IMG/VR virus record: IMGVR_UViG_3300048589_000702
Span: 1-23,511 of that record
Strand: one strand, 5' to 3'
From: a virus
Length of the DNA stretch: 23,511 nt
Part shown: one piece after another, positions 264 to 23,393 of the stretch
Layout: every line of letters starts with the position of its first letter
Numbering within the stretch: position 1 is the stretch's first letter
Program-made: the position numbers and the translations under genes
Notes under the pieces: model-generated
Seen by the model: the letters and a program-made list of their open reading frames with translations, nothing else
What the model was told of the DNA's origin: nothing
Databases searched by the model: none

Positions 264-1160
264 CTACAGGTGACGCGCGATGTGCAGCTTCAGCGCGTTG
301 TTCATGATGTTGTCGGCGCCGTTGGCGAGCCGCGTGGTGTTCAGCAGCTCCTTGGCCTTCCACTCCAGCGTGGACGGCACCACCAGGTGGGTGGCCCGCA
401 GCGCAAGCTTCTTGCCGTAGTCACCGGTGCGCGCGTTGAGCGCCGTCAGCGCGGCCTGCAGGTTGGTCGCGTCGAGCGTCTTGCGCGAGCCGTAGGCCAG
501 CTGCCAGAGGGCAAAGCCGGCGTTGCAGCGCGAGTCCACCCCGTAGACGAAGGTCTTCGCGTTGAAGACGTTGTCGTCCGTCTCTGCCGTCTTGGCCACG
601 AACTGCGGCCGCTTGCGGTCCTGGAAGATCAGCGGCTTGATGACCTGCGAGCAGTCCATGATGTACCAGGGCGTACCCGAGCCGGAGTTGTTGTCCCAGT
701 TGGCCTGCGACTGAGCGACACCCTCTTCATCGAGCACCGGATGATCGGTGTCGAAGAAGTTCTGGCCGTCGTAGCACAGCGTGCTGGCCCCGGCGGCGAG
801 CAGGCCATAGACCAGCTCATCCGGGTGCGATGCAGCCGACTGACCGAGGCCGGACATCAGCGGCGTGTAGATGCCGAGGTTGTCGTCCTCGATGTCGTCG
901 CGGTCGACGCCCACGGTCAACTCGAACGGCTTGTTGCGGATCGAGTAGCCGTGCGACTTGATGCCGTGCACCACGCGGTCGCCAAGCCACTCGCGCATGC
1001 GCGGCAGATCGCCCAGCCAGCCGTATTCGTTGCTGCGGGTGGTGCTGGGCACCGTCGAGGCGATCTCGCCGAAGGTCGGCTGCGCCTGGTTGAGACCCGC
1101 CCCGAACGCGGCGCTGAACGCGACCATGAGCGAGGAGAGATTCGCGTGATTGATGTGCAT
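264..1160 (-). CDS. T: Major capsid protein, Mu gpT-like
   Basis: The 298-residue product has the hallmarks of the Mu gpT major head subunit family: an N-terminal segment MHINHANLSSLMVAFSAAF, a PSTTRSNEYGWLGDLPRMREW block near residue 40, the NKPFELTVGVDRDDIEDDNLG block near residue 77, and the GQNFFDTDHPV block near residue 135. It forms the icosahedral shell after cleavage of the scaffold by protease I. The ATG has a GGAG six bases upstream. It lies downstream of the protease/scaffold and decoration genes on the same strand, as in Mu. What is odd is the strand: in Mu this gene follows gpG in the same rightward operon, whereas here it is on the opposite side of the repressor and transcribed leftward. 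Family call is confident. Confidence 0.95.
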   Translation of the reverse strand: MHINHANLSSLMVAFSAAFGAGLNQAQPTFGEIASTVPSTTRSNEYGWLGDLPRMREWLGDRVVHGIKSHGYSIRNKPFELTVGVDRDDIEDDNLGIYTPLMSGLGQSAASHPDELVYGLLAAGASTLCYDGQNFFDTDHPVLDEEGVAQSQANWDNNSGSGTPWYIMDCSQVIKPLIFQDRKRPQFVAKTAETDDNVFNAKTFVYGVDSRCNAGFALWQLAYGSRKTLDATNLQAALTALNARTGDYGKKLALRATHLVVPSTLEWKAKELLNTTRLANGADNIMNNALKLHIARHL

Positions 1161-1250
1161 GGAGTGCTCCGGGTAGTCGAGGTCGGTGTGGTTTGCGATG
1201 GCTGCCGGGCGGGTGGGCCCGGCGTGCCTTGGAACGGTTCGCTGCGGCCG

Positions 1251-1700
1251 TTAGCCCGGCTCGCCCTGGATGCCCTGCGGGCCGACCGAGCCGGGGCTCA
1301 CGTCCACCCAGACGCCCTGGGCGTCGACGTCGACGATGGCGCCTGCGACCTCGCGGGCGCCGCTGTCATCGGTCAGTGCAACCGTCTCGTCGTCGACGAT
1401 GTAGGCCGGCTGGCCGATGTGCGCGATGGTGATGAGGTCGGCATCGGCGCTGTTGTTGAAGCGGCCGGTGGCGAACACGACCTCAACGCGCTCGGCGCCC
1501 GCCAGACCGGCGTTCACGACCGTCTCATTGGCAATGCCAACGGCGCGACCGCTCGATGCGGTGCCGGCTGGCACCGCGCCGGTGCCGGTTGCGAGGACGG
1601 ACACGAGACTGCCCGCGTAGATCGTGGTGGCGGCGGCGACAGGCAGCGAGCTGAGCCGATTGGGACGGCGCAGGGTGTTGCGTGCTGAGGTCAAGGGCAT
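1251..1700 (-). CDS. Head decoration / capsid cement-like protein
   Basis: The 149-residue product reads as a small beta-rich structural protein: YAGSLVSVLATGTGAVPAG, a GRAVGIANETV segment, then a GRFNNSADAD and IGQPAYIVDDETVAL block followed by AGAIVDVDAQGVWV. This pattern is common in proteins encoded between protease I and gpT in transposable phages, where they are thought to bind the outside of the capsid. The last residues form a few Gly-x-y triplets (GSVGPQGIQGEPG), a tiny collagen-like tail. An AGGA lies about seven bases before the ATG. It sits 38 bases after the protease gene and 90 bases before gpT in a leftward operon. The role is inferred from context and fold pattern, not from catalytic residues. 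Confidence 0.75.
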   Translation of the reverse strand: MPLTSARNTLRRPNRLSSLPVAAATTIYAGSLVSVLATGTGAVPAGTASSGRAVGIANETVVNAGLAGAERVEVVFATGRFNNSADADLITIAHIGQPAYIVDDETVALTDDSGAREVAGAIVDVDAQGVWVDVSPGSVGPQGIQGEPG

Positions 1701-1738
1701 CGGAGGTTCCTGGCAGTGTCGGGGCTTGGTGCAGTGAG

Positions 1739-2713
1739 TCAGGCGGTCGCGCGGGCCTTGCGCGACGCGATGAACTGCTCGGACGTGATGCCCATCAGTT
1801 CACACACACGCTTCTCGTCGGCGTTGAGCGCCGTGTTGCTGGCGTCGGCCTTCTTCTTGTCCAGGTCGGTGTCCGGCGCGATGACCGGCGCCGCGCCCAC
1901 GAACTTCTGGAAGCGCTCCAGCCCGGCCTGGTCGCTGCAGCTGGCGCGGTGGTAGTCGACTGCGCCTGGCGAAATCTTGCCGGCCTTGGTGGCGGCATCG
2001 ATGGCGGCGTCGACCGCCGCCTTGTGCGCATCGGCATCGCGCTTGACGAGCTGCTGCTCGGCGTTGTTGGCGCGAGCGACGACGGCGTCGTAGTCCGAGC
2101 GCGGCACGAAGCGGTCCAGCGACGGCTGTTGCGAGTTCGAGGCCGTGGCCAGATCGCCCTTGAGCTTGGCGATGGCGGTGACGCCTTCGTCTTCGGTGGC
2201 CGTGGCGGCAAGACCGAGGGCAGCGCAGATGGCGGCAGCAAGTTTCATCGGGGACTCCTGGTTGAGTGCCTGCAGGTGCAGGTTGGGTTTGTTCGTCAAG
2301 CCGACCGAGACCAGGCGCGCGATGCGCCCGCTCTGCGGGTCGTAGTCGAAGACCGGGCTGAGGTAGCGGTACTCGTTCGCCTCAAGCTCATTGCGGCCGC
2401 GCGGCGTCCACAGCGCGGGAGCCCACAGCGAGCCGTCGGCGCGAACTTCGAGCGTCTTGAGCCACCCGGCGGCTGGCGACTCGTCGCCCTTGGGCGCGCG
2501 CAGCTCGGTGGAGTGGTTGCGATCGATGACGATGTCGACGGCGCGCTCTGCGTGAGCGGCAAGCACGGACTGCTGCGCGTCGGCATCCCAGACCCAGTTG
2601 CGGCCATCGCGACCGCGAACGATCCCGAACGCATCCGGCGCCGGGATCAGCTGCACCTTGTCAGGCGCAGAGCCGGTGGGTAGTTCGAAGCAGAGGGCGA
2701 GGCGGCGGGGCAT
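1739..2713 (-). CDS. I: Mu gpI-like head maturation protease with C-terminal scaffold
   Basis: The 324-residue product begins with a protease-like part, including RGRDGRNWVWDADAQQSV near residue 35, VDIVIDRNHSTELRAPKGD near 60 (the likely active-site region, with DRNH), AAGWLKTLEV, GSLWAPALWTPRGRNEL and EYRYLSPVFDYD near 117. This is the Mu gpI / phage protease family pattern. The C-terminal half is Ala/Lys/Asp-rich and helical, as expected for the scaffold that is removed during head maturation; it contains PMKLAAAICAALG near residue 153, an in-frame Met where a separate scaffold product could start, as in Mu where Z is the in-frame 3' part of I. It is the first gene of the leftward late operon. 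No clear Shine-Dalgarno precedes the ATG, which lies inside a predicted hairpin. Confidence 0.92.
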   Translation of the reverse strand: MPRRLALCFELPTGSAPDKVQLIPAPDAFGIVRGRDGRNWVWDADAQQSVLAAHAERAVDIVIDRNHSTELRAPKGDESPAAGWLKTLEVRADGSLWAPALWTPRGRNELEANEYRYLSPVFDYDPQSGRIARLVSVGLTNKPNLHLQALNQESPMKLAAAICAALGLAATATEDEGVTAIAKLKGDLATASNSQQPSLDRFVPRSDYDAVVARANNAEQQLVKRDADAHKAAVDAAIDAATKAGKISPGAVDYHRASCSDQAGLERFQKFVGAAPVIAPDTDLDKKKADASNTALNADEKRVCELMGITSEQFIASRKARATA

Positions 2714-6395: not shown

Positions 6396-8186
6396 ATGGC
6401 CGCAGCGCTTAACGAGCAGTTGCAGGAGATTGCCCGCGCCGCAGAGGCGGCCGGGTTTGGCAAGCAGACGCTGATCTACACCGCCGCCGCACGTCGCCTG
6501 GGCATGTCGGTGGCGACGCTGCTGAAGAAGCTGGAGACGGTGCGCGTCAGGAAGGAACGTCAACGCCGCAAGGATGCCGGCAATAGCGCGCTGTCCCAGG
6601 ACGAGATGAAGACCATCGCGGCGACGCTGGTCGAAACAATCCGTCTCACGGGAACGGGGGCGGTCAACCTGGAAGAGTGCATCAAGCATCTGCGGACGAA
6701 TGGCAAGATTCGTGCGACGGTGGTCGACCGCAGCACGGGTGAAGAGACGCCGCTCAGCCTCAGCGCCATTCGCCGCGCGCTTGCCAACGCCGGCTTGCAC
6801 CCCGAGCAGCTGGCACAGCCGCATGCGTCAACCCGCATGCAGAGCCTGCACCCCAACCACGTGTGGGAGATCGACGCTTCCGTATCCCGCCAGTGGTACC
6901 TGGCCGACAGCGGCACCGAAGTGATGGACGCCAGCGTGTACTACCGCGGCAAGCCGGCCAACTTCATCAGCATCAACGACCGGCGAATCATCCGCTACTC
7001 AATCACCGATCACACCAGCGGGCACACCCTGCTGTTCTACGTGCTGCGCGCCGAGAGCGCGATGAACGTCGTCAGCGCCCTGATCTATGCGATGACGCTG
7101 AAAGATGGGATCGCGATGCACGGGCTGCCGCGCGTCATCTACGTGGACAAGGGCACGTACTCGCAGACCCTGCAGGCGTTCTGCGATTCGCTCGACATCG
7201 AGCTGATCGCGCATGCCACCGGCAACGCACGCGCCACCGGCCAGGTGGAGAGCAGCCACAACATCATCGAAACGTGCTTTGAGGCGCCGCTCAAGCTGCG
7301 CAAGCCCGTGTGCAGCATCGAAGAGATGAACGGCTACGCCGCGCTGTGGGCGCGGCACTATTGCGCCACCAAGATCCACACGCGCACCGGCATGACGCGC
7401 CGCGATGGCTGGCTGCGCATCACCCCCGAGCAGCTGCGGCTCGCGCCACCCGTCGAAGTACTGCGCCAGCTCGCGACGACCACGCCCAAGCCGTGCACGG
7501 TGCGCGACCTGCGCATACGGTTCCGCGGTGCGGTGTGGGATGTCAGCGGCCTGCCTGGTGTGCTCAATGGCGCCAAGGTGCTGGTCACGATCAACCCGTT
7601 CGACGACGCGAACACCGTTCGCATCGTGGTCACCGGCGAGGACCGCCGCATCGCGCACTACCTGGCGCCGCGCATTGAACTCAACGGCTGGGGCTTCGAG
7701 GCACACGCGCCGATCATCGGCCAGAGCTTTGCGCCGATGCCGGACACCGCAACCGACACGGCGCGCAAGGAGATCGAGCGCATCGCGATGGAGGCGATGA
7801 CCGACGCCGAAGCCGTCGCCGCGCGCAAGGCCAAGCGCGTCGCCTTCGGTGGCTCGATCGACCCCACCAAGGTATGGCGCGAGACCGAGATCCCGCAGCA
7901 CCTGCCGCGCGCTGGCCAGGCATCGGAGATCACCGGGCCGCAGATCGTCGAACCCACGCAGCGCATCCCGGAGATTCGTCCGGCCTACGTGCCAGCCGCA
8001 CTCGATCACGTTGCGATGGCCACCGCGCTGAAGCCACGCGTGGAAGCACGCGGCGCGACGTGGGGCGCTGACACCTACGCCCGCATGGCCGCGCTGTGGC
8101 CGGCTGGCGTCGCAGAGGAGCGGCTGGATGACTGCGTTGTGCAGCTGCTGCGGAGTGGGTTGCGGATTGCGGGAGGTGCGGCATGA
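6396..8186 (+). CDS. A: MuA-type DDE transposase
   Basis: The 596-residue product is the phage transposase that cuts and joins the prophage ends during integration and replicative transposition. An N-terminal helix-turn-helix part (about residues 1-60) precedes an rve-type catalytic core. The acidic triad is visible: D160 in VWEIDAS, D251 in VIYVDKGTY, and E285 in TGQVESSHNIIE, with 34 residues between the last two, as usual for the DDE class. A beta-barrel-like domain follows (WDVSGLPGVLNGAKVLVTINPF near residue 390), then a basic helical C-terminus, where MuA contacts MuB. It is somewhat shorter than the 663 residues of MuA. It overlaps the next gene by four bases. The core motif set is closer to the D3112/B3-type transposases than to MuA itself, judged from memory. 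Confidence 0.95.
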   Translation: MAAALNEQLQEIARAAEAAGFGKQTLIYTAAARRLGMSVATLLKKLETVRVRKERQRRKDAGNSALSQDEMKTIAATLVETIRLTGTGAVNLEECIKHLRTNGKIRATVVDRSTGEETPLSLSAIRRALANAGLHPEQLAQPHASTRMQSLHPNHVWEIDASVSRQWYLADSGTEVMDASVYYRGKPANFISINDRRIIRYSITDHTSGHTLLFYVLRAESAMNVVSALIYAMTLKDGIAMHGLPRVIYVDKGTYSQTLQAFCDSLDIELIAHATGNARATGQVESSHNIIETCFEAPLKLRKPVCSIEEMNGYAALWARHYCATKIHTRTGMTRRDGWLRITPEQLRLAPPVEVLRQLATTTPKPCTVRDLRIRFRGAVWDVSGLPGVLNGAKVLVTINPFDDANTVRIVVTGEDRRIAHYLAPRIELNGWGFEAHAPIIGQSFAPMPDTATDTARKEIERIAMEAMTDAEAVAARKAKRVAFGGSIDPTKVWRETEIPQHLPRAGQASEITGPQIVEPTQRIPEIRPAYVPAALDHVAMATALKPRVEARGATWGADTYARMAALWPAGVAEERLDDCVVQLLRSGLRIAGGAA

Positions 8187-8641
8187 GCGACATCTATTGC
8201 GAATGCTGGCGCTGCCGGAACAAGCACTGGGAGAGTGAGCGTGAAAGTCGGCCAGCCTTGCGTTACCAGGTCAAGGTAAACGACCTGGTGTGTCCGCGTT
8301 GCGGCGCGAAGAGCTATTACCGAGTCGCCCCTGATAAGTGGCCGGGCAAGCGAACCGGCCCGGTCACGACGCGCGGCTTCACGCTCATCGAGCTTCTGAT
8401 CGCCATCGCAGCCATCGGCATTCTTCTGGCGGTCATATTCGGCGAGCCGGATCCAGGTCCCGCCCCGGCTCCAGTGATCAAACCACCCCATTATTACGAG
8501 CTGTGCATCGATGGCCTCACCTTCATTGAGGCGATCGACGACGGCTGGAGACGCGAGCAAGGCAACTACGCCCTGGTCCAACTCATCGGCACCGACGGCC
8601 TGCCGGTTCCCTGCGGCAGCAGCAGCGAGGTCGAGCAATGA
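8183..8641 (+). CDS. Zinc-ribbon / type IV pilin-like chimeric membrane protein
   Basis: The 152-residue product joins three parts. Residues 1-50 form a zinc ribbon (CECWRC at 6-11, CPRCGAKSYY at 37-46), a type seen as a small stand-alone protein in other transposable phages. Residues 61-86 contain a textbook prepilin signal: TTRG|FTLIELLIAIAAIGILL, with the conserved Gly65 before the cut, Phe66 as new residue 1 and Glu70 at position +5, followed by a hydrophobic helix. A Pro-rich linker leads to a small C-terminal domain with Cys108 and Cys144 that could form a disulfide outside the inner membrane. A 65-residue leader is far longer than normal prepilin leaders. GGAGGT lies before the ATG, and both ends overlap A and B by four bases. 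Possible roles: altering type IV pili against superinfection, or simply a membrane anchor. Gene call firm, function unknown. Confidence 0.85.
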   Translation: MSDIYCECWRCRNKHWESERESRPALRYQVKVNDLVCPRCGAKSYYRVAPDKWPGKRTGPVTTRGFTLIELLIAIAAIGILLAVIFGEPDPGPAPAPVIKPPHYYELCIDGLTFIEAIDDGWRREQGNYALVQLIGTDGLPVPCGSSSEVEQ

Positions 8642-9801
8642 CCGCCCTTGTCCTGCGCAGCCTGCTGGCCGAGGCCGACATCGAGGTGCTCGCGCTGGCT
8701 CGCCACTGCCAGCTGTCGCGAACCATGGCCAGCCGCCTGGTCAACCACGGCGCGTGGCCCAAGCGCCGCAACGAGGGCGAGCTGCGCCAGCGCATCAACG
8801 GCTTTCTGCAGAGCCACGGGCTCTGCCACCGCCACGCCTTCCGCAAAGAAAAAGCCCCGACGCGCAGCAACGCGCCGAGGCCGTGTGCCCCACCAACCGC
8901 AAAGTCAGGAGACGACGAAATGCTACCACGCAAGATTTCCCTCACGCCGCAAGCCCGCCAGCACTTCCGCATCACCCGCGACCCGTTCATCGACTGTCGC
9001 GAGTTGGACGACGTGTTCATGACGCCCGACATCCGCTACGTGCGGGAGGCGATCCGCAGCGCCTGCAAGCACAACGGCTTCCTCGCCGTGATCGGCGAAA
9101 GCGGCGCGGGCAAGACCACGCTGTTCGAGGAGCTGCAGGAGCGCCTGCACGATGACGCGGGCACCGTGCTGATCAAGCCCTACGTGCTGGCGATGGAGGG
9201 CACCGACGCCACCGGCAAGACGCTGCGCAGCCAGCACATCGCCGAGGCGGCGATGCGGCAGATCGCGCCGCTGGCGCGTTGTGCGTCCAGCCCGGACGCC
9301 CGCTTTGCCCAGGTGCATCGCGCGCTGATCGACAGCAGCCGCAATGGGCGCAATCACGTCATCGTGATCGAGGAGGCGCACGCGGTGCCGGTGCCCACGT
9401 TGCGCCACCTCAAGCGGTGGATGGAGTTGAAGGATCGCATGCGCCCGCTGTGCGCGGCGGTGCTGTTCGCCCAGCCCGAGCTGGAAGCAAAGCTGGCTGA
9501 TCCTGCATTGCGCGAGGTCGCCCAGCGCATCGAGCTGGTGCACCTGCCGCCACTCGACAACCACCTGGCCGCGTACCTCAAGCATCGCCTGGCGCGCTTC
9601 GGCGTGGACGTTGCGAACGTCATCGACGACGCCGGCATCGAGGCCATCCGCGCCCGTCTCACCACGACGGGAAAGGGCCAGCGCAACGGCTCGATGGTCT
9701 ACCCGCAGGCCGTGCACAACGTGCTGGCCGCGTGCATGAACGCTGCCGCAAACCTGGGCGCGCCAAACGTCACCCGCGAGCTGGTCGGAGGTGTGCTGTG
9801 A
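8638..9801 (+). CDS. B: MuB-type AAA+ ATPase, transposition target protein
   Basis: The 387-residue product is the transposase partner that binds DNA with ATP, selects target sites and stimulates strand transfer. The N-terminal 60 residues look like a DNA-binding helix-turn-helix (HCQLSRTMASRLVNHGAWPK). The AAA+ domain starts after a Pro/Lys-rich linker: FRITRDPFIDCRELDDVF near residue 110, Walker A GESGAGKTT at 153-161, Walker B VIVIEEAH at 241-248, and an arginine-containing LADPALREVAQRIE block near 285. It is in the TniB/ExeA-like group of small transposition ATPases. It is longer than MuB (312 residues), because of the extra N-terminal linker. Four-base overlaps link it to the genes on both sides. 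Confidence 0.93.
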   Translation: MTALVLRSLLAEADIEVLALARHCQLSRTMASRLVNHGAWPKRRNEGELRQRINGFLQSHGLCHRHAFRKEKAPTRSNAPRPCAPPTAKSGDDEMLPRKISLTPQARQHFRITRDPFIDCRELDDVFMTPDIRYVREAIRSACKHNGFLAVIGESGAGKTTLFEELQERLHDDAGTVLIKPYVLAMEGTDATGKTLRSQHIAEAAMRQIAPLARCASSPDARFAQVHRALIDSSRNGRNHVIVIEEAHAVPVPTLRHLKRWMELKDRMRPLCAAVLFAQPELEAKLADPALREVAQRIELVHLPPLDNHLAAYLKHRLARFGVDVANVIDDAGIEAIRARLTTTGKGQRNGSMVYPQAVHNVLAACMNAAANLGAPNVTRELVGGVL

Positions 9802-17946: not shown

Positions 17947-18494
17947 TGGGCCGCAAGAACAACGTCCACAAGCTGTCGCCTGACGCGCGGCGCTACGTCG
18001 AGCGCATGCTGCGCGAGGACCGCTGGTCGCTCGACGAGATCGTCGACGCGACGCTGATGGAGTTCCCGGATGAGCGCCTGTCGCGCTCCAGCCTGCACCG
18101 GTACCAGCCCGAGTTCGCCGAGCTGCGCGAGCGCATGGATGCGATCGACCGCGTCTCGGAAGCGTTGATCGGCGGGCTCGGCGAAGGCGCCGGTGACAAG
18201 GCCGGGGCGCTGCTGGCGCATGCAGTGACCACGGCGGTCACGCATGCCGCGCTCAAGGCGCAGTCGAGCGAGGAAGACATCAGCATTGCGGAGATTCGCA
18301 AGCTGGCGGGCGCGGCCAAGCTGGCACTGGAGACGCGCACGCTGAGCATGCGCGAGCGTAAGGCCATCGCGCAGGAAGCGCGCGAGCAGCAGCAGCGGGA
18401 GCAGGCCGATCGGCTCGACCAGCTCGGCCACGCGCAGGGTCTCTCGGAAGAGCAGGCCAACTTCCTGAAGCGCGACGTGCTCGGCATGAAGTGA
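17946..18494 (+). CDS. Small terminase subunit candidate, DUF3486 (Mu gp27-like)
   Basis: The 182-residue product begins with MGRKNNVHKLSPDARRYVER, followed by DRWSLDEIVDATLMEF and LSRSSLHRYQPEFAELRERM, a helix-turn-helix-like DNA-binding part, and a long helical second half ending in LSEEQANFLKRDVLG. This is the DUF3486 family, whose position directly before the large terminase in Mu-like phages makes it the likely small terminase that recognises the packaging site at the prophage left end. It shares one base with the preceding stop and the next start. Functional role is by position and family. Confidence 0.9.
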   Translation: MGRKNNVHKLSPDARRYVERMLREDRWSLDEIVDATLMEFPDERLSRSSLHRYQPEFAELRERMDAIDRVSEALIGGLGEGAGDKAGALLAHAVTTAVTHAALKAQSSEEDISIAEIRKLAGAAKLALETRTLSMRERKAIAQEAREQQQREQADRLDQLGHAQGLSEEQANFLKRDVLGMK

Positions 18495-20137
18495 TGGCTG
18501 CCACTGCCCTCAAGCCCCTGGCGTCAACGCTGCGCGTCCTGGAATGGGGCGATCTGCCGGCGAGCGTGCGCGAGGTGCCCGACAACTTCGACCCGCTGGC
18601 CGAAGGCGTGTTGATGAAGCACCAGGTGGAATGGGTGCAGATCCATGCGGCGATCAAGGCGTGCCCGAAGGGACGGCGCACCGGCATGACCTTTGCGACG
18701 GCGCTGGCGCGCACGGTGACGGCGGCCAGCCGCAAGAGTGCGGGCGGTAGCAACGTCTTCTACATCGGCGACACCAAGGAGAAGGGACTCGAGTTCATCG
18801 GCTATTGCGCCAAGTTCGCACGCTCGATCGCGCGGGCTCAGCTGCAGGGTGTGTCGTCGATCGAGGAGTTCCTCTTCGAAGACCAGGACGAGACCGGCCG
18901 CACCAAGCACATCACCAGCTATCGCATCCGGTTTGCCAGCGGATTCCAGATCACTGCGCTGTCGAGCCGGCCGGCGAACATCCGCGGCCTGCAAGGCATC
19001 GTCGTGATCGACGAAGCCGCGTTCCACGCCGACGTGCAGGGCGTGCTTGATGCAGCGACGGCGTTGCTCATCTGGGGCGGCTCGATCGAGGTTATCTCCA
19101 GCCACAACGGCAAGAAGAACCCGTTCAACCAGTTCTGCAACGACATCGAGGCCGGCCGCTACGGCGACGAAGCCGTGGTCTACACCGCCACGTTCGATGA
19201 CGCGGTGGCCAATGGCCTGTACGAACGCGCACAGATGATGCAGGGCAAGCCCGCGACGGCCGCCGACAAGGCCAAGTGGTATGCGCGGATCCGCAACGCC
19301 TACGGCCCGCGCCGCGCGGCGATGCTGGAAGAGCTGGACGCGATCCCGCGCGACGGTGGTGGCGTGGCGATTCCCGGCGTCTGGATCGAGAACGCGATGC
19401 GCGAAGAGCGGCCTGTGCTGCGCGTGGTGCTCGATGAAGACTTCGCCAAGCTGCCGCCGAAAGAGCGCGAGCGCTGGGCCGAGGACTGGATCAAGCAGCA
19501 CCTCGCGCCTGAGCTGGCCAAGCTCAACGATCAGCTGACGCACGTCGGCGGTTATGACTTCGCGCGGCACCGCGACTTCTCGGTGCTTGTGCCGATAGCA
19601 ATCTATCCCGGCCTGGTGCGGCGCGTGCCGTTCACCATCGAAATGCATAAGGTGCCGACGCGGCAGCAGGAGCAGATTTCGTGGGCGCTGTGGCGCGGGC
19701 TGCCGAAGTTCTGCGGCGCGGCGATCGACGCCACCGGCACCGGCGAGACGATGGCCGAATACACCGGCGACGAGTTCGGCGAGCTGATCCACCAGATCAA
19801 GCTGAGCCGCGGCTGGTATGGCACCTGGATGCCGAAGATGGCGCAGGGCTTCGAGGATGGCGTGATCGATATCCCGCGCGACAACCAGCTGCACGATGAC
19901 CTGCGCGCGATCGAGGATGTCCAGGGAATCATGATGGTGCCCGACGTGCGAACGGCGGACATCAAGGACCCCGACCTCTTCCGCCACGGTGACTTCGCGA
20001 TCGCGCTGTGCCTGGCCTATTACGCGTCGCTCAACCTGAGCGGGCGCATCGACTTCCACCGCGTGCAGGCAACCCGCGAGACCGAGCGACTGGTGAAGCG
20101 CGGCGCAGGGTGGCGGAACAATGAGGGGATTTGGTGA
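18494..20137 (+). CDS. Large terminase subunit (Mu gp28-like ATPase/nuclease)
   Basis: The 547-residue product packages DNA into heads. A degenerate Walker A-like PKGRRTGMT is at residues 58-66, as in Mu-type terminases where the P-loop begins with an SRR/GRR-type motif; Walker B IVVIDEAA is at 169-176. The ALSSRPANIRGLQG segment and EVISSHNGKKNPF (ATPase coupling region) follow. A nuclease-like GYDFARHRDFSVLVPI is near 353-368, with D355 as a candidate metal-binding residue, and AIDATGTGETMAE near 415 fits a further acidic site. Start set at the ATG sharing one base with the preceding stop; a GTG three bases earlier is equally possible. Confidence 0.94.
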   Translation: MAATALKPLASTLRVLEWGDLPASVREVPDNFDPLAEGVLMKHQVEWVQIHAAIKACPKGRRTGMTFATALARTVTAASRKSAGGSNVFYIGDTKEKGLEFIGYCAKFARSIARAQLQGVSSIEEFLFEDQDETGRTKHITSYRIRFASGFQITALSSRPANIRGLQGIVVIDEAAFHADVQGVLDAATALLIWGGSIEVISSHNGKKNPFNQFCNDIEAGRYGDEAVVYTATFDDAVANGLYERAQMMQGKPATAADKAKWYARIRNAYGPRRAAMLEELDAIPRDGGGVAIPGVWIENAMREERPVLRVVLDEDFAKLPPKERERWAEDWIKQHLAPELAKLNDQLTHVGGYDFARHRDFSVLVPIAIYPGLVRRVPFTIEMHKVPTRQQEQISWALWRGLPKFCGAAIDATGTGETMAEYTGDEFGELIHQIKLSRGWYGTWMPKMAQGFEDGVIDIPRDNQLHDDLRAIEDVQGIMMVPDVRTADIKDPDLFRHGDFAIALCLAYYASLNLSGRIDFHRVQATRETERLVKRGAGWRNNEGIW

Positions 20138-20340
20138 TGGGCTTCAGGAACAGATATCGCGTCACCTTCGTTCGTGGCCATTACTACGCTTGGCTGAAGC
20201 GTTGGTACTGGCCGTTCTGGTGTCGACTCGGGCACCGCGAATGCGATCAAGTTGGAGCCCAGAACAGATGCGAGCTGCACGCCGCAAAGAACGTCGTATG
20301 GACAAGCGAGTCGGAGACGGAGCGCAAGCATGGCCAGTAG
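20137..20340 (+). CDS. Small aromatic-rich protein between terminase and portal
   Basis: The 67-residue product has an unusual Trp/Tyr-rich core (VTFVRGHYYAWLKRWYWPFW) then a Cys-containing segment CRLGHRECDQ and CELHAAKN. It shares one base with the terminase stop and overlaps the portal start by eleven bases, so translation is coupled. GC content is lower than in its neighbours, suggesting a later insertion. The aromatic patch might sit at a membrane surface. No family recognised. Confidence 0.6.
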   Translation: MGFRNRYRVTFVRGHYYAWLKRWYWPFWCRLGHRECDQVGAQNRCELHAAKNVVWTSESETERKHGQ

Positions 20341-22888
20341 CCGCATCCTCGGCCCCGACGGGCAACCCTTCGAACTCGACGCGCTGCACGAGGAAGTCTC
20401 GGCACCGTCGACCACGGGCATTCGCCAGGTCTGGCACGGCAGTGTCGCCAACAACCTGACGCCGCAGCGGCTGGCGCGCATCCTGTCGGCCGCGGCCGAT
20501 GGCGACGCGCACCAGTACCTCACGCTGGCCGAGGAGATGGAAGAGCGCGACATGCACTACGCGTCCGTCCTCGGCACGCGCAAGCTCGCCATCGTTGGGC
20601 TGCAGGTGCGCGTTGACAGCGCCAGCGACGACAAGGAGGACATCCGCCGCGCCGATGCGGTGCGCGAGCTGATCGATGCCGCCGAATTCAGCGAGTTGTG
20701 CTCGCACCTGGTTGACGCGCTGGGCAAGGGCTACGCCGTCAGCGAGATCGTCTGGGATCGCAGCGGCAAGGAATGGATGCCGAAGTATCACGACCGCGAT
20801 CCGCGCTTCTTCAACTACGACCGCGCGACCGGGCGCGAGCTGCGGCTGCTTGACGAACAGGACGCCTTCAATGGTCTGCCGCTGGGACCGTTCAAGTTCA
20901 TCGTGCACCAGCCGCGCATCCGCAGCGGCCTGCCGATTCGCGGCGGCCTCGCGCGCCTGGCCGCGCCGAGCTACATGTGCAAGTCATGGAGTTGGAAGGA
21001 TTGGATGGCGTTCGCCGATATCTTCGGCCTGCCGATGCGCATTGGCCGCTACGGGCCGAACACGACCGAGCCGGATATCCGCAAGCTGATCAACGCGATC
21101 GCGAACCTCGGCAGCGACGCTGCCGCGGCGATTCCCGACAGCGTCAAGATCGAGTTCCAGCAGGCGGCGCAGGTCGGTGGCGCGGGCGACTTCTTCGAGA
21201 AGCTGGTGACCTTCTGGGACAAGCAGGTCTCGAAGGGCGTGCTCGGCCAGACGATGACCGCCGACGACGGCGCGTCGCTGTCGCAGGCAAGGGTGCACAA
21301 CGATGTGCGCATGGATCTGCTGGAGGCCGACGCGCGCACGCTGAGCAACACGCTGAACCGGCACCTGGTGCACCCGTTCGTGTCGCTCAACTTCGGCCAG
21401 GATCGCAAGTTCCCGAAGCTCACGATCGTCACGCCGGAGGTGGACAACACGGCGGCGCTGGTCGATGCAGTGAACAAGCTGGTTCCGCTCGGTCTGCGGG
21501 TCGAGCAATCGGTGATGCGCGACAAGCTCAACATTCCGGATCCGGCCGAGGGCGGCGAGCTGCTGGCGCAGCCGGTGACGGCGCTGCCAGTACCGCCTGC
21601 GGGCGTCGATATCGACCCGGCTGAGCCGGCTGTCGCTGCCGTGGCGGGCGATGTGCAATCCGCAGCGCTCAACGGCGCACAAGTCACCGCGCTGCGCGAG
21701 CTGCTCAACGCGGCTGCGCGTAAGGAGATTCCGCTGGAGACGGCGCGGGCGATGATCGCGGCGAGTTTTCCGACACTCACCGAGGTGCAGATCGGCCAGA
21801 TGGTGGACCCGCTGCGCAACTTCGAGCTGCCCGAGCCAGTCGCGCCGCCAGCGCCGGCATTGAACGTGGAGACCCTTGCGTCTGCCATTCGCCGTGCGAT
21901 GAACAACGAGCCGGCACCGGCCCCGGCGGATCCCATATACCTCGGCGTCGAGGTATTGGCGCGCGCGGTCGATCCGATGGTGCAGACGTGGGTCGATGTG
22001 ATGCGCGAACAGGCCGAGCAGGCGGGCAGTTTTGACGCCTTCGTTGCATGGCTGGATGAGCGCGCGCCGCAGGTGCTTTCAACCGAGCTGGCGACCCGGC
22101 AGATCGCGCAAGGCATGGCTGTGGTGAACCTCGCTGCGCGAGCCGATATCCAGCGCCAGCTGGAGGAGGAGATCGGCGGCGGAATGGCCGAGAGCCTCAA
22201 CGCCGAGCAGGCAGGTGGCGGCATCATCAACCGCGGCTGGCAGCCCGCCGCCGAGTACTTCCTGCGCAAGATCAACGTGCCCACCGCGCGCTGGGATGAC
22301 CTCTGGCAAGAGCAGCACGCTCGGGCGTTCAGCGTGGCCGGTGCGATGCGCGCCGATCTGCTGGCGGACTTGCGCGCGGCGGTTGCCGAAGCGGTCGAAG
22401 GCGGCGGCAGTTACGACCAGTTCCACCAGCGCTTTGAGGAGATCGTCGCGCGGCGTGGCTGGACCGGGTGGACGGGCGAAGGCACCGAGGCCGGCCGTGC
22501 CTGGCGTACCCGGACCATCTACCAAACCAACCTGTCGACGGCGCAAGCCGCTGGCCGCTACACCCAGATGACCGACCCGGCCACGCTGGAGCACATGCCC
22601 TACTGGCAATACCGGCACAACACCGTCAACAACCCGCGCGCTGCGCACAAGGCGTGGGACGGGCTGGTATTGCGATGGGATGACCCGTGGTGGAACGAGC
22701 ACTACCCACCAAACGACTGGGGATGCAACTGCGACGTGCGGCCGGTCAGTGATCGCATGCTTCGCCGGATGGGCAAGGCTGGTCCGGACAGGGCGCCAGA
22801 GCCCGGACCCGGCGACCCGCCGCCCGAGTGGGCCTATCACGTCGGCCGCGCCCCTGGTGCCGGCGCAGCGGGGCGCGGAGGCCCATAG
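20330..22888 (+). CDS. Portal protein (DUF935, Mu gp29) fused to gpF-like minor head protein
   Basis: The 852-residue product holds two proteins that are separate in Mu. Residues 1 to about 620 are the DUF935 portal: LTPQRLARILSAAADGDAHQ near 43, EEMEERDMHYASVLGTRKLA, an IVHQPRIRSGLPIRGGLARL block near 190, KSWSWKDWMAFADIFGLPMR near 220, and a Pro/Ala-rich C-terminal part. From about 635 the Mu gpF-like head-morphogenesis domain follows: AAEYFLRKINVPTARWDDLW, AFSVAGA, WRTRTIYQTNLSTA, and the signature AHKAWDGLVLRWDDPWWNEHYPPNDWGCNCDVRPVS near 780. The reading frame is open throughout. An in-frame ATG at 22184 with GGAGGAG upstream could also yield gpF alone (234 residues). The portal forms the head vertex; gpF is a minor capsid factor. 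Confidence 0.93.
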   Translation: MASSRILGPDGQPFELDALHEEVSAPSTTGIRQVWHGSVANNLTPQRLARILSAAADGDAHQYLTLAEEMEERDMHYASVLGTRKLAIVGLQVRVDSASDDKEDIRRADAVRELIDAAEFSELCSHLVDALGKGYAVSEIVWDRSGKEWMPKYHDRDPRFFNYDRATGRELRLLDEQDAFNGLPLGPFKFIVHQPRIRSGLPIRGGLARLAAPSYMCKSWSWKDWMAFADIFGLPMRIGRYGPNTTEPDIRKLINAIANLGSDAAAAIPDSVKIEFQQAAQVGGAGDFFEKLVTFWDKQVSKGVLGQTMTADDGASLSQARVHNDVRMDLLEADARTLSNTLNRHLVHPFVSLNFGQDRKFPKLTIVTPEVDNTAALVDAVNKLVPLGLRVEQSVMRDKLNIPDPAEGGELLAQPVTALPVPPAGVDIDPAEPAVAAVAGDVQSAALNGAQVTALRELLNAAARKEIPLETARAMIAASFPTLTEVQIGQMVDPLRNFELPEPVAPPAPALNVETLASAIRRAMNNEPAPAPADPIYLGVEVLARAVDPMVQTWVDVMREQAEQAGSFDAFVAWLDERAPQVLSTELATRQIAQGMAVVNLAARADIQRQLEEEIGGGMAESLNAEQAGGGIINRGWQPAAEYFLRKINVPTARWDDLWQEQHARAFSVAGAMRADLLADLRAAVAEAVEGGGSYDQFHQRFEEIVARRGWTGWTGEGTEAGRAWRTRTIYQTNLSTAQAAGRYTQMTDPATLEHMPYWQYRHNTVNNPRAAHKAWDGLVLRWDDPWWNEHYPPNDWGCNCDVRPVSDRMLRRMGKAGPDRAPEPGPGDPPPEWAYHVGRAPGAGAAGRGGP

Positions 22889-22889
22889 C

Positions 22890-23393
22890 GTGGCAGGCGT
22901 CGAGGTCAAGCTGCAGCTCGATGACCGCGAGGCGCGCGAGTTGTTTGCACGCCTCAAGGCGAGCGGTGCGCGCAATCGCGGACTGATGGCCGAGATTGGT
23001 TCGGTGCTGGAGCAGAGCACAAGGGATCGGTTCGACAGCGAGACATCGCCGGCCGGCATTCCCTGGGCACCGATCTCCAAGGAATGGAAAGAGGAGAAGG
23101 CCGAGCGCGGATTTAACACCGGCATCATGAAGATGCGGGGCGACTTGCTCCGCAGCACCCGCTTCGAGAATGACGACAATTCGGTCAGCGTCATCCAGTC
23201 CCAGCCCTACGCGGCGATCCACCACTACGGCGGGGAGATTCGGCCGAAGAAGGGACGGGCGCTGGTGGTGCGCGGCAGGCTGCTCGGGAAGGTGACGATT
23301 CCGGCCCGGCCCAGCATCGGCGTCTCCACAGAGGACCGCTCCGAGATCCTCGACGCCGTCGCCGATTTCATCGGACGGATCGGTCGCCGGTAG
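22890..23393 (+). CDS. G: Virion morphogenesis protein, Mu gpG-like
   Basis: The 167-residue product starts at a GTG with GGAGG eight bases upstream. It has the gpG / phage virion morphogenesis pattern: LFARLKASGARNRGLMAEIG, TRDRFDSETSPAGIPWAPIS near residue 45, then MRGDLLRSTRF and QPYAAIHHYGGEI near 105, and a C-terminal IPARPSIGVSTEDRSEILDA followed by FIGRIGRR. In Mu it takes part in head-tail assembly. It is the last gene of the rightward operon; in Mu it is followed by protease I, but here non-coding repeats follow and protease I is at the other end of the window on the other strand. Confidence 0.92.
   Translation: MAGVEVKLQLDDREARELFARLKASGARNRGLMAEIGSVLEQSTRDRFDSETSPAGIPWAPISKEWKEEKAERGFNTGIMKMRGDLLRSTRFENDDNSVSVIQSQPYAAIHHYGGEIRPKKGRALVVRGRLLGKVTIPARPSIGVSTEDRSEILDAVADFIGRIGRR

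Follow-up and report, generated by a model that had tools for sequence, protein, structure and literature searches.

A transposable-phage gene between transposition genes A and B joining a zinc ribbon to a prepilin-type anchor and a two-cysteine domain

Organization of the locus

The window is the whole 23,511-nucleotide stretch of DNA analysed (IMG/VR virus record IMGVR_UViG_3300048589_000702), in which a 152-aa open reading frame was found, as originally claimed, between the genes for the MuA-like transposase A and the MuB-like transposition protein B (Table 1). The start codon is an ATG with GGGAGG 6 nt upstream, as read from the sequence, and both ends of the gene are ATGA overlaps, with A and with B, which places it inside the A-B operon; its GC3 (0.76) is slightly below that of A and B (0.86 and 0.89). 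Start codons are absent from residue 37 to the prepilin-type motif, so that the leader preceding the motif has at least 30 residues whichever start is used, and the ATG with its good Shine-Dalgarno sequence sets it at 65 residues. The ribbon as an artefact of a wrongly chosen start was rejected, since ribbon relatives also start from this ATG, and the best that the GTG at codon 36 offers is an AAGG at poor spacing.

The ribbon, prepilin-type motif, Pro-rich linker and two-cysteine C-terminal domain that had been proposed to share a single frame were all recovered there. The ribbon cysteines form the pairs C8/C11 and C37/C40, C6 being additional, and the cleavage-type motif reads TTRG65/F66TLIE70, the slash marking the cleavage position, while the Pro-rich linker stands where helix alpha-1 of true pilins continues into its long second half. 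The protein aligns end to end with stand-alone ribbons plus mini-prepilins, and the gene joins two phage modules that normally occur apart.

Table 1. Features of the A-B region and domains of the fusion protein
Feature	Position	Strand	Basis
Transposase A (MuA-like)	6396..8186	+	phrog_310 E 3e-84
Shine-Dalgarno GGAGG of fusion gene	8172..8176	+	sequence 5′ of ATG 8183
Fusion gene: zinc ribbon, prepilin-type anchor, two-Cys domain, 152 aa	8183..8641	+	ORF, ATGA overlaps with A and B
Zinc ribbon, residues 1-50 (C8, C11, C37, C40)	8183..8332	+	phrog_26321 E 4.5e-12; 31 IMG/VR relatives; strands predicted at 5-48
Basic linker, residues 51-64	8333..8374	+	low predicted confidence
Prepilin-type segment, residues 65-86 (G65 -1, F66 +1, E70 +5), predicted helix 68-86	8375..8440	+	Pfam PF07963, TIGR02532 above cut-offs
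Pro-rich linker, residues 87-103	8441..8491	+	sequence
Two-cysteine beta domain, residues 104-147 (C108, C144)	8492..8623	+	mini-prepilin C-terminal HMM; predicted strands 104-133
Transposition protein B (MuB-like ATPase)	8638..9801	+	phrog_296 E 2.4e-52

Elsewhere in the window, the genes for the major head protein and the head protease occupy the left end (264-2713, minus strand) and those for terminase, portal and neck the right end (18491-23393, plus strand), an unusual head-gene order that perhaps reflects an inversion or an assembly fault. The portal and minor head protein, of the Mu gp29 and gp30 kinds, share one 878-aa frame (20252-22888, plus strand), either a natural fusion or a sequencing error. 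A second phage protein (3331-3756, minus strand; phrog_2546), in which a split zinc ribbon surrounds a Gly-rich hydrophobic segment, adjoins a repressor-like gene.

The zinc ribbon and its phage relatives

The four-cysteine ribbon at the N-terminus is that of the phrog_26321 family, the match covering residues 1-52 of phrog_26321 (Table 1). A scan with the ribbon alignment detected 31 relatives in IMG/VR, with tblastn E values as low as 2e-14, the highest identity (53% over residues 1-50 of the fusion protein) being to a relative of 53 aa that stands alone. L233, L237, L242, L243 and L260-L263 encode the ribbon by itself, in ORFs of 53-61 aa; in the remaining relatives the ribbon is joined to a ‘WASGLIE...VPGVPE’ domain, and a prepilin motif was found in none of the 31. 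The relatives lie mostly in the early region of transposable phages, between B/DUF3164/Gam and GemA. The WASGLIE domain of the full-length phrog_26321 family is missing from the fusion gene and from the whole window; it also occurs without the ribbon, as at the A-B junctions of L029 and L032.

The ribbon is weakly similar to Com translational regulators (phrog_6417, E 5e-4), and the stand-alone relative in L237 lies directly 3′ of a gene assigned as Mom-like by eye, without a profile search. A search with Pfam Zn_ribbon_Com did not report the fusion protein and scored its relative L234 at 11 bits, below the cut-off of 22.9. Com regulators would be expected to carry a Com zinc ribbon scoring above cut-off and to adjoin mom, and the ribbon is not placed among them.

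The prepilin-type segment

The fusion protein scores above the curated cut-offs of both Pfam N_methyl (PF07963; 26.7 bits against 21.2) and NCBIfam TIGR02532 (28.8 bits against 16.3), and its ORF was the sole prepilin-like match among 752 ORFs with hydrophobic segments in the transposable-phage loci examined. A chance hydrophobic helix was rejected on these cut-offs, on the 1-in-752 control and on the matches of both halves to independent phage families. Class III signal peptides have Gly or Ala at -1, about 20 hydrophobic residues and usually Glu at +5 (PMC10191384), and the fusion protein conforms at -1, in the hydrophobic stretch and at +5. It departs from the usual hydrophilic leader, which with the ribbon amounts to 65 residues compared with mostly 3-11 in mini-prepilin relatives from phages, and the leader is thus as exceptional as had been supposed. 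The lollipop fold is likewise absent: the AlphaFold model has a helix at 68-86, the Pro linker and a small beta domain, with no long alpha-1 bearing a globular head, and in structure comparison the likeness to solved pilins is limited to the first helix.

The two-cysteine domain and its anchors

Residues 65-147 match a family of phage mini-prepilins, proteins of 70-90 aa with leaders mostly of 3-11 residues, a G/FTLIE helix and the pattern C-x-x-G-x-x-[FY] ... Q ... G ... C. An HMM of 22 members, taken from IMG/VR motif scans and named phages and built without the window protein, gave the window C-terminal domain an E value of 0.07-0.085; at E 0.085 it was the top sequence outside the family among 29,370 ORFs. 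Because the scan patterns had fixed the first C, the G and the aromatic residue, the shuffle test was conditioned on these residues, and with C, G and F fixed 0 of 20,000 shuffles reached the window score, while fixing the last C as well let 1 of 20,000 do so. These results support the window protein as a member of the mini-prepilin/two-cysteine family, and its most divergent one. In AlphaFold models, the window protein and L278 have the same order of elements, a helix followed by beta strands with cysteine; fold searches with the two-cysteine domain gave no significant structural match. An alignment of eight C-termini was discarded as a scan query, being too divergent.

The same domain occurs behind an ordinary membrane helix in Acidovorax phage ACP17 (ASS33915.1; HMM 37.8 bits), behind an apparent lipoprotein signal in Xanthomonas phage XacN1 (BBA65503.1; 36.0 bits, the lipobox being read by eye) and with an ordinary helix in the neighbour of the L157 mini-prepilin (20.9 bits). 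The ACP17 and XacN1 proteins were found with C-terminal queries and are free of motif bias; most family members were found through the prepilin motif, and that most of those found carry it is not a measure of anchor frequencies. The original prediction had taken homologues with an ordinary membrane helix in place of the motif as a sign of chance resemblance. Such homologues do exist for the C-terminal half (ACP17 and the L157 neighbour, with XacN1 lipoprotein-like), whereas most relatives found keep the motif. The prepilin segment therefore seems to be one interchangeable anchor among several, which suggests that a common function may be carried by the predicted periplasmic two-cysteine domain rather than by the pilin motif. 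At L157:4223-4655 (plus strand) an adjacent gene pair has the common two-cysteine end, one gene with a prepilin anchor and the other with an ordinary helix.

Position and recurrence of the fusion

A and B are directly adjacent in most relatives. Among the closest Xanthomonadales prophages the A-B junction is either empty or occupied by an ORF of 52 aa or a membrane ORF of 49 aa, and this variety of small ORFs marks the junction as a site for small accessory genes, the position that the fusion gene occupies. The A-B junctions of B3/D3112-like phages (L029:7781-8137, L032:7835-8146, L307 and L309) also carry varied small cargo genes, and mining them may pay. Prepilin peptidase is encoded in all four genomes that contain the closest prophages.

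When the halves were searched separately to see whether the fusion recurs, as had been advised, each half was found to have phage relatives and no other ribbon-prepilin fusion appeared. No full-length relative was detected by tblastn in phages, plasmids, IMG/VR or GTDB genomes, a whole-protein search of Xanthomonadales genomes matched the pilin motif only, and a direct scan with a fusion pattern, which covered one of the two cysteine codons, gave no second example. Outside this gene, each half has its known counterparts solely in phage protein families that have not been studied. The statement that no system of this form has been described agrees with the literature searched, in which no paper on a ribbon-prepilin fusion was found.

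Three other loci have long frames ahead of a prepilin motif. At L137:483-1097 (plus strand) a YqeY domain (Pfam, 62.6 bits) reads in frame and without a stop into a phage mini-prepilin, where an internal GTG with GGAG upstream could yield the short mini-prepilin alone; at L232:4041-4727 (minus strand) an ORF of about 150 aa shares its frame with a mini-prepilin for which a separate ATG and Shine-Dalgarno sequence are present, making these in-frame nested genes. Both were set aside as parallel fusions owing to the internal starts. At L192:725-1690 (plus strand) a DUF1559 prepilin has a 62-residue leader resembling an Arc/RHH DNA-binding domain (below cut-off), the leader having at least 43 residues whichever start is used.

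Possible function

With confidence slightly better than even, the gene is regarded as accessory cargo at the A-B junction, consisting of two fused phage modules and encoding an early inner-membrane protein that changes the host envelope. It would have arisen by fusion of a transposable-phage zinc ribbon with a phage mini-prepilin, that is, a type III signal-anchor with a small two-cysteine domain, and would be expressed early, together with A and B. Inserted in the inner membrane, the protein would have its ribbon on the cytoplasmic side and its disulfide-capable two-cysteine domain on the periplasmic side, the prepilin segment acting primarily as an anchor that displays the latter. Host prepilin peptidase may cut after Gly65 to give a freed ribbon and an 87-residue mini-pilin; topology and possible cleavage are both inferred from knowledge of class III signal peptides (PMC10191384). 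The most likely use would be an early change to the host envelope such as superinfection exclusion, with pilus interference as one possible route. Against this explanation, the fusion has been seen once, the C-terminal domain is the weakest-scoring member of its family (E 0.07-0.085) and is without a structural match, and mini-prepilins also occur in large phages, in which a need for exclusion is not obvious.

The original proposal was that the protein caps or poisons pili: prepilin peptidase would remove the ribbon leader and the mini-pilin, with Phe+1, Glu+5, no alpha-1C and a tiny head, would enter a type IV pilus or type II secretion filament and cap or jam it, excluding pilus-dependent phages. 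The motif is intact at -1, +1 and +5, only the first helix resembles solved pilins, and the four host genomes of the closest prophages all have the peptidase. Proteins of other phages are known to block type IV pili, through inactivation of PilB or in other ways (PMC11436027; see also PMC8764522), which makes the idea reasonable. It is nevertheless weakened by the presence of the same cysteine domain on different anchors, the relatives in ACP17, XacN1 and beside the L157 mini-prepilin lacking the motif; a folded 65-residue leader is unlike the usual short ones, and the gene neighbourhoods examined offer no pilus link. Poisoning as such is thus not supported, and we consider it unlikely.

A recent accidental fusion without a selected function would fit the single example, the divergent C-terminal domain and the slightly lower GC3, but the open frame, the intact cysteines and motif, the good Shine-Dalgarno sequence, and the tight coupling on both sides within a compact early operon make it decidedly improbable. 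It is very doubtful that the protein is a regulator in which a nucleic-acid-binding ribbon is held at the membrane until freed by prepilin peptidase. The weak Com likeness of the ribbon, the relative beside the Mom-like gene in L237, and the YqeY (L137) and possible RHH (L192) domains in frame 5′ of a prepilin motif would agree with such release, but the ribbon falls short of Zn_ribbon_Com, none of the window genes was noticed to be Mom-like, and given the internal starts with Shine-Dalgarno sequences in L137 and L232 it may be the short product that counts in those two. A combined scheme has even less to commend it, namely that one cut by prepilin peptidase as a splitting enzyme yields both a free zinc-ribbon regulator and a mini-pilin that disturbs type IV pili or type II secretion.

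The fusion gene draws attention to what seems to be an undescribed group of phage envelope proteins, unrelated phages carrying one small two-cysteine domain on anchors of prepilin, plain-helix or lipoprotein type. By adding a predicted cytoplasmic ribbon, it offers a single protein for probing cleavage by prepilin peptidase, the exchange of anchors and any effect on pili and, if the folded 65-residue leader is processed, the known substrate range of prepilin peptidase would be widened.

Comparison with known systems

Like Tip of phage D3112 and other pilus-blocking proteins of phages, the fusion protein would target type IV pili if the pilus reading were right; those proteins have been described as acting on the machinery of the pilus (PilB) rather than as pilin-like, and the likeness is drawn without a claim of sequence relation. 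With type IV prepilins and type II pseudopilins (PF07963, TIGR02532) the protein shares Gly at -1, Phe at +1, Glu at +5 and the hydrophobic segment, but it differs in its 65-residue ribbon leader, the lack of alpha-1C and a head of about 40 residues, so that the match is one of motif alone. The phrog_26321 family (L109/L241, L234 and L103) has the same N-terminal CxxC...CxxC ribbon and is likewise from transposable phages, whereas its members stand alone or continue into the ‘VAWCWASGLIEIG’ domain, and their usual site is between DUF3164/Gam and GemA rather than between A and B. The ACP17 and XacN1 proteins have the two-cysteine domain of the fusion protein but a plain helix or an apparent lipoprotein signal instead of the prepilin motif. 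The mini-prepilins of L278, L282, L231, Xanthomonas phage X1 (WEM34242.1) and Synechococcus phage BUCT-ZZ01 (UTS52068.1) have in common with it the G/FTLIE motif, helix, short linker and CxxGxx[FY]...G...C domain, and differ in being 70-90 aa in length, with short leaders mostly of 3-11 residues and no cytoplasmic domain.
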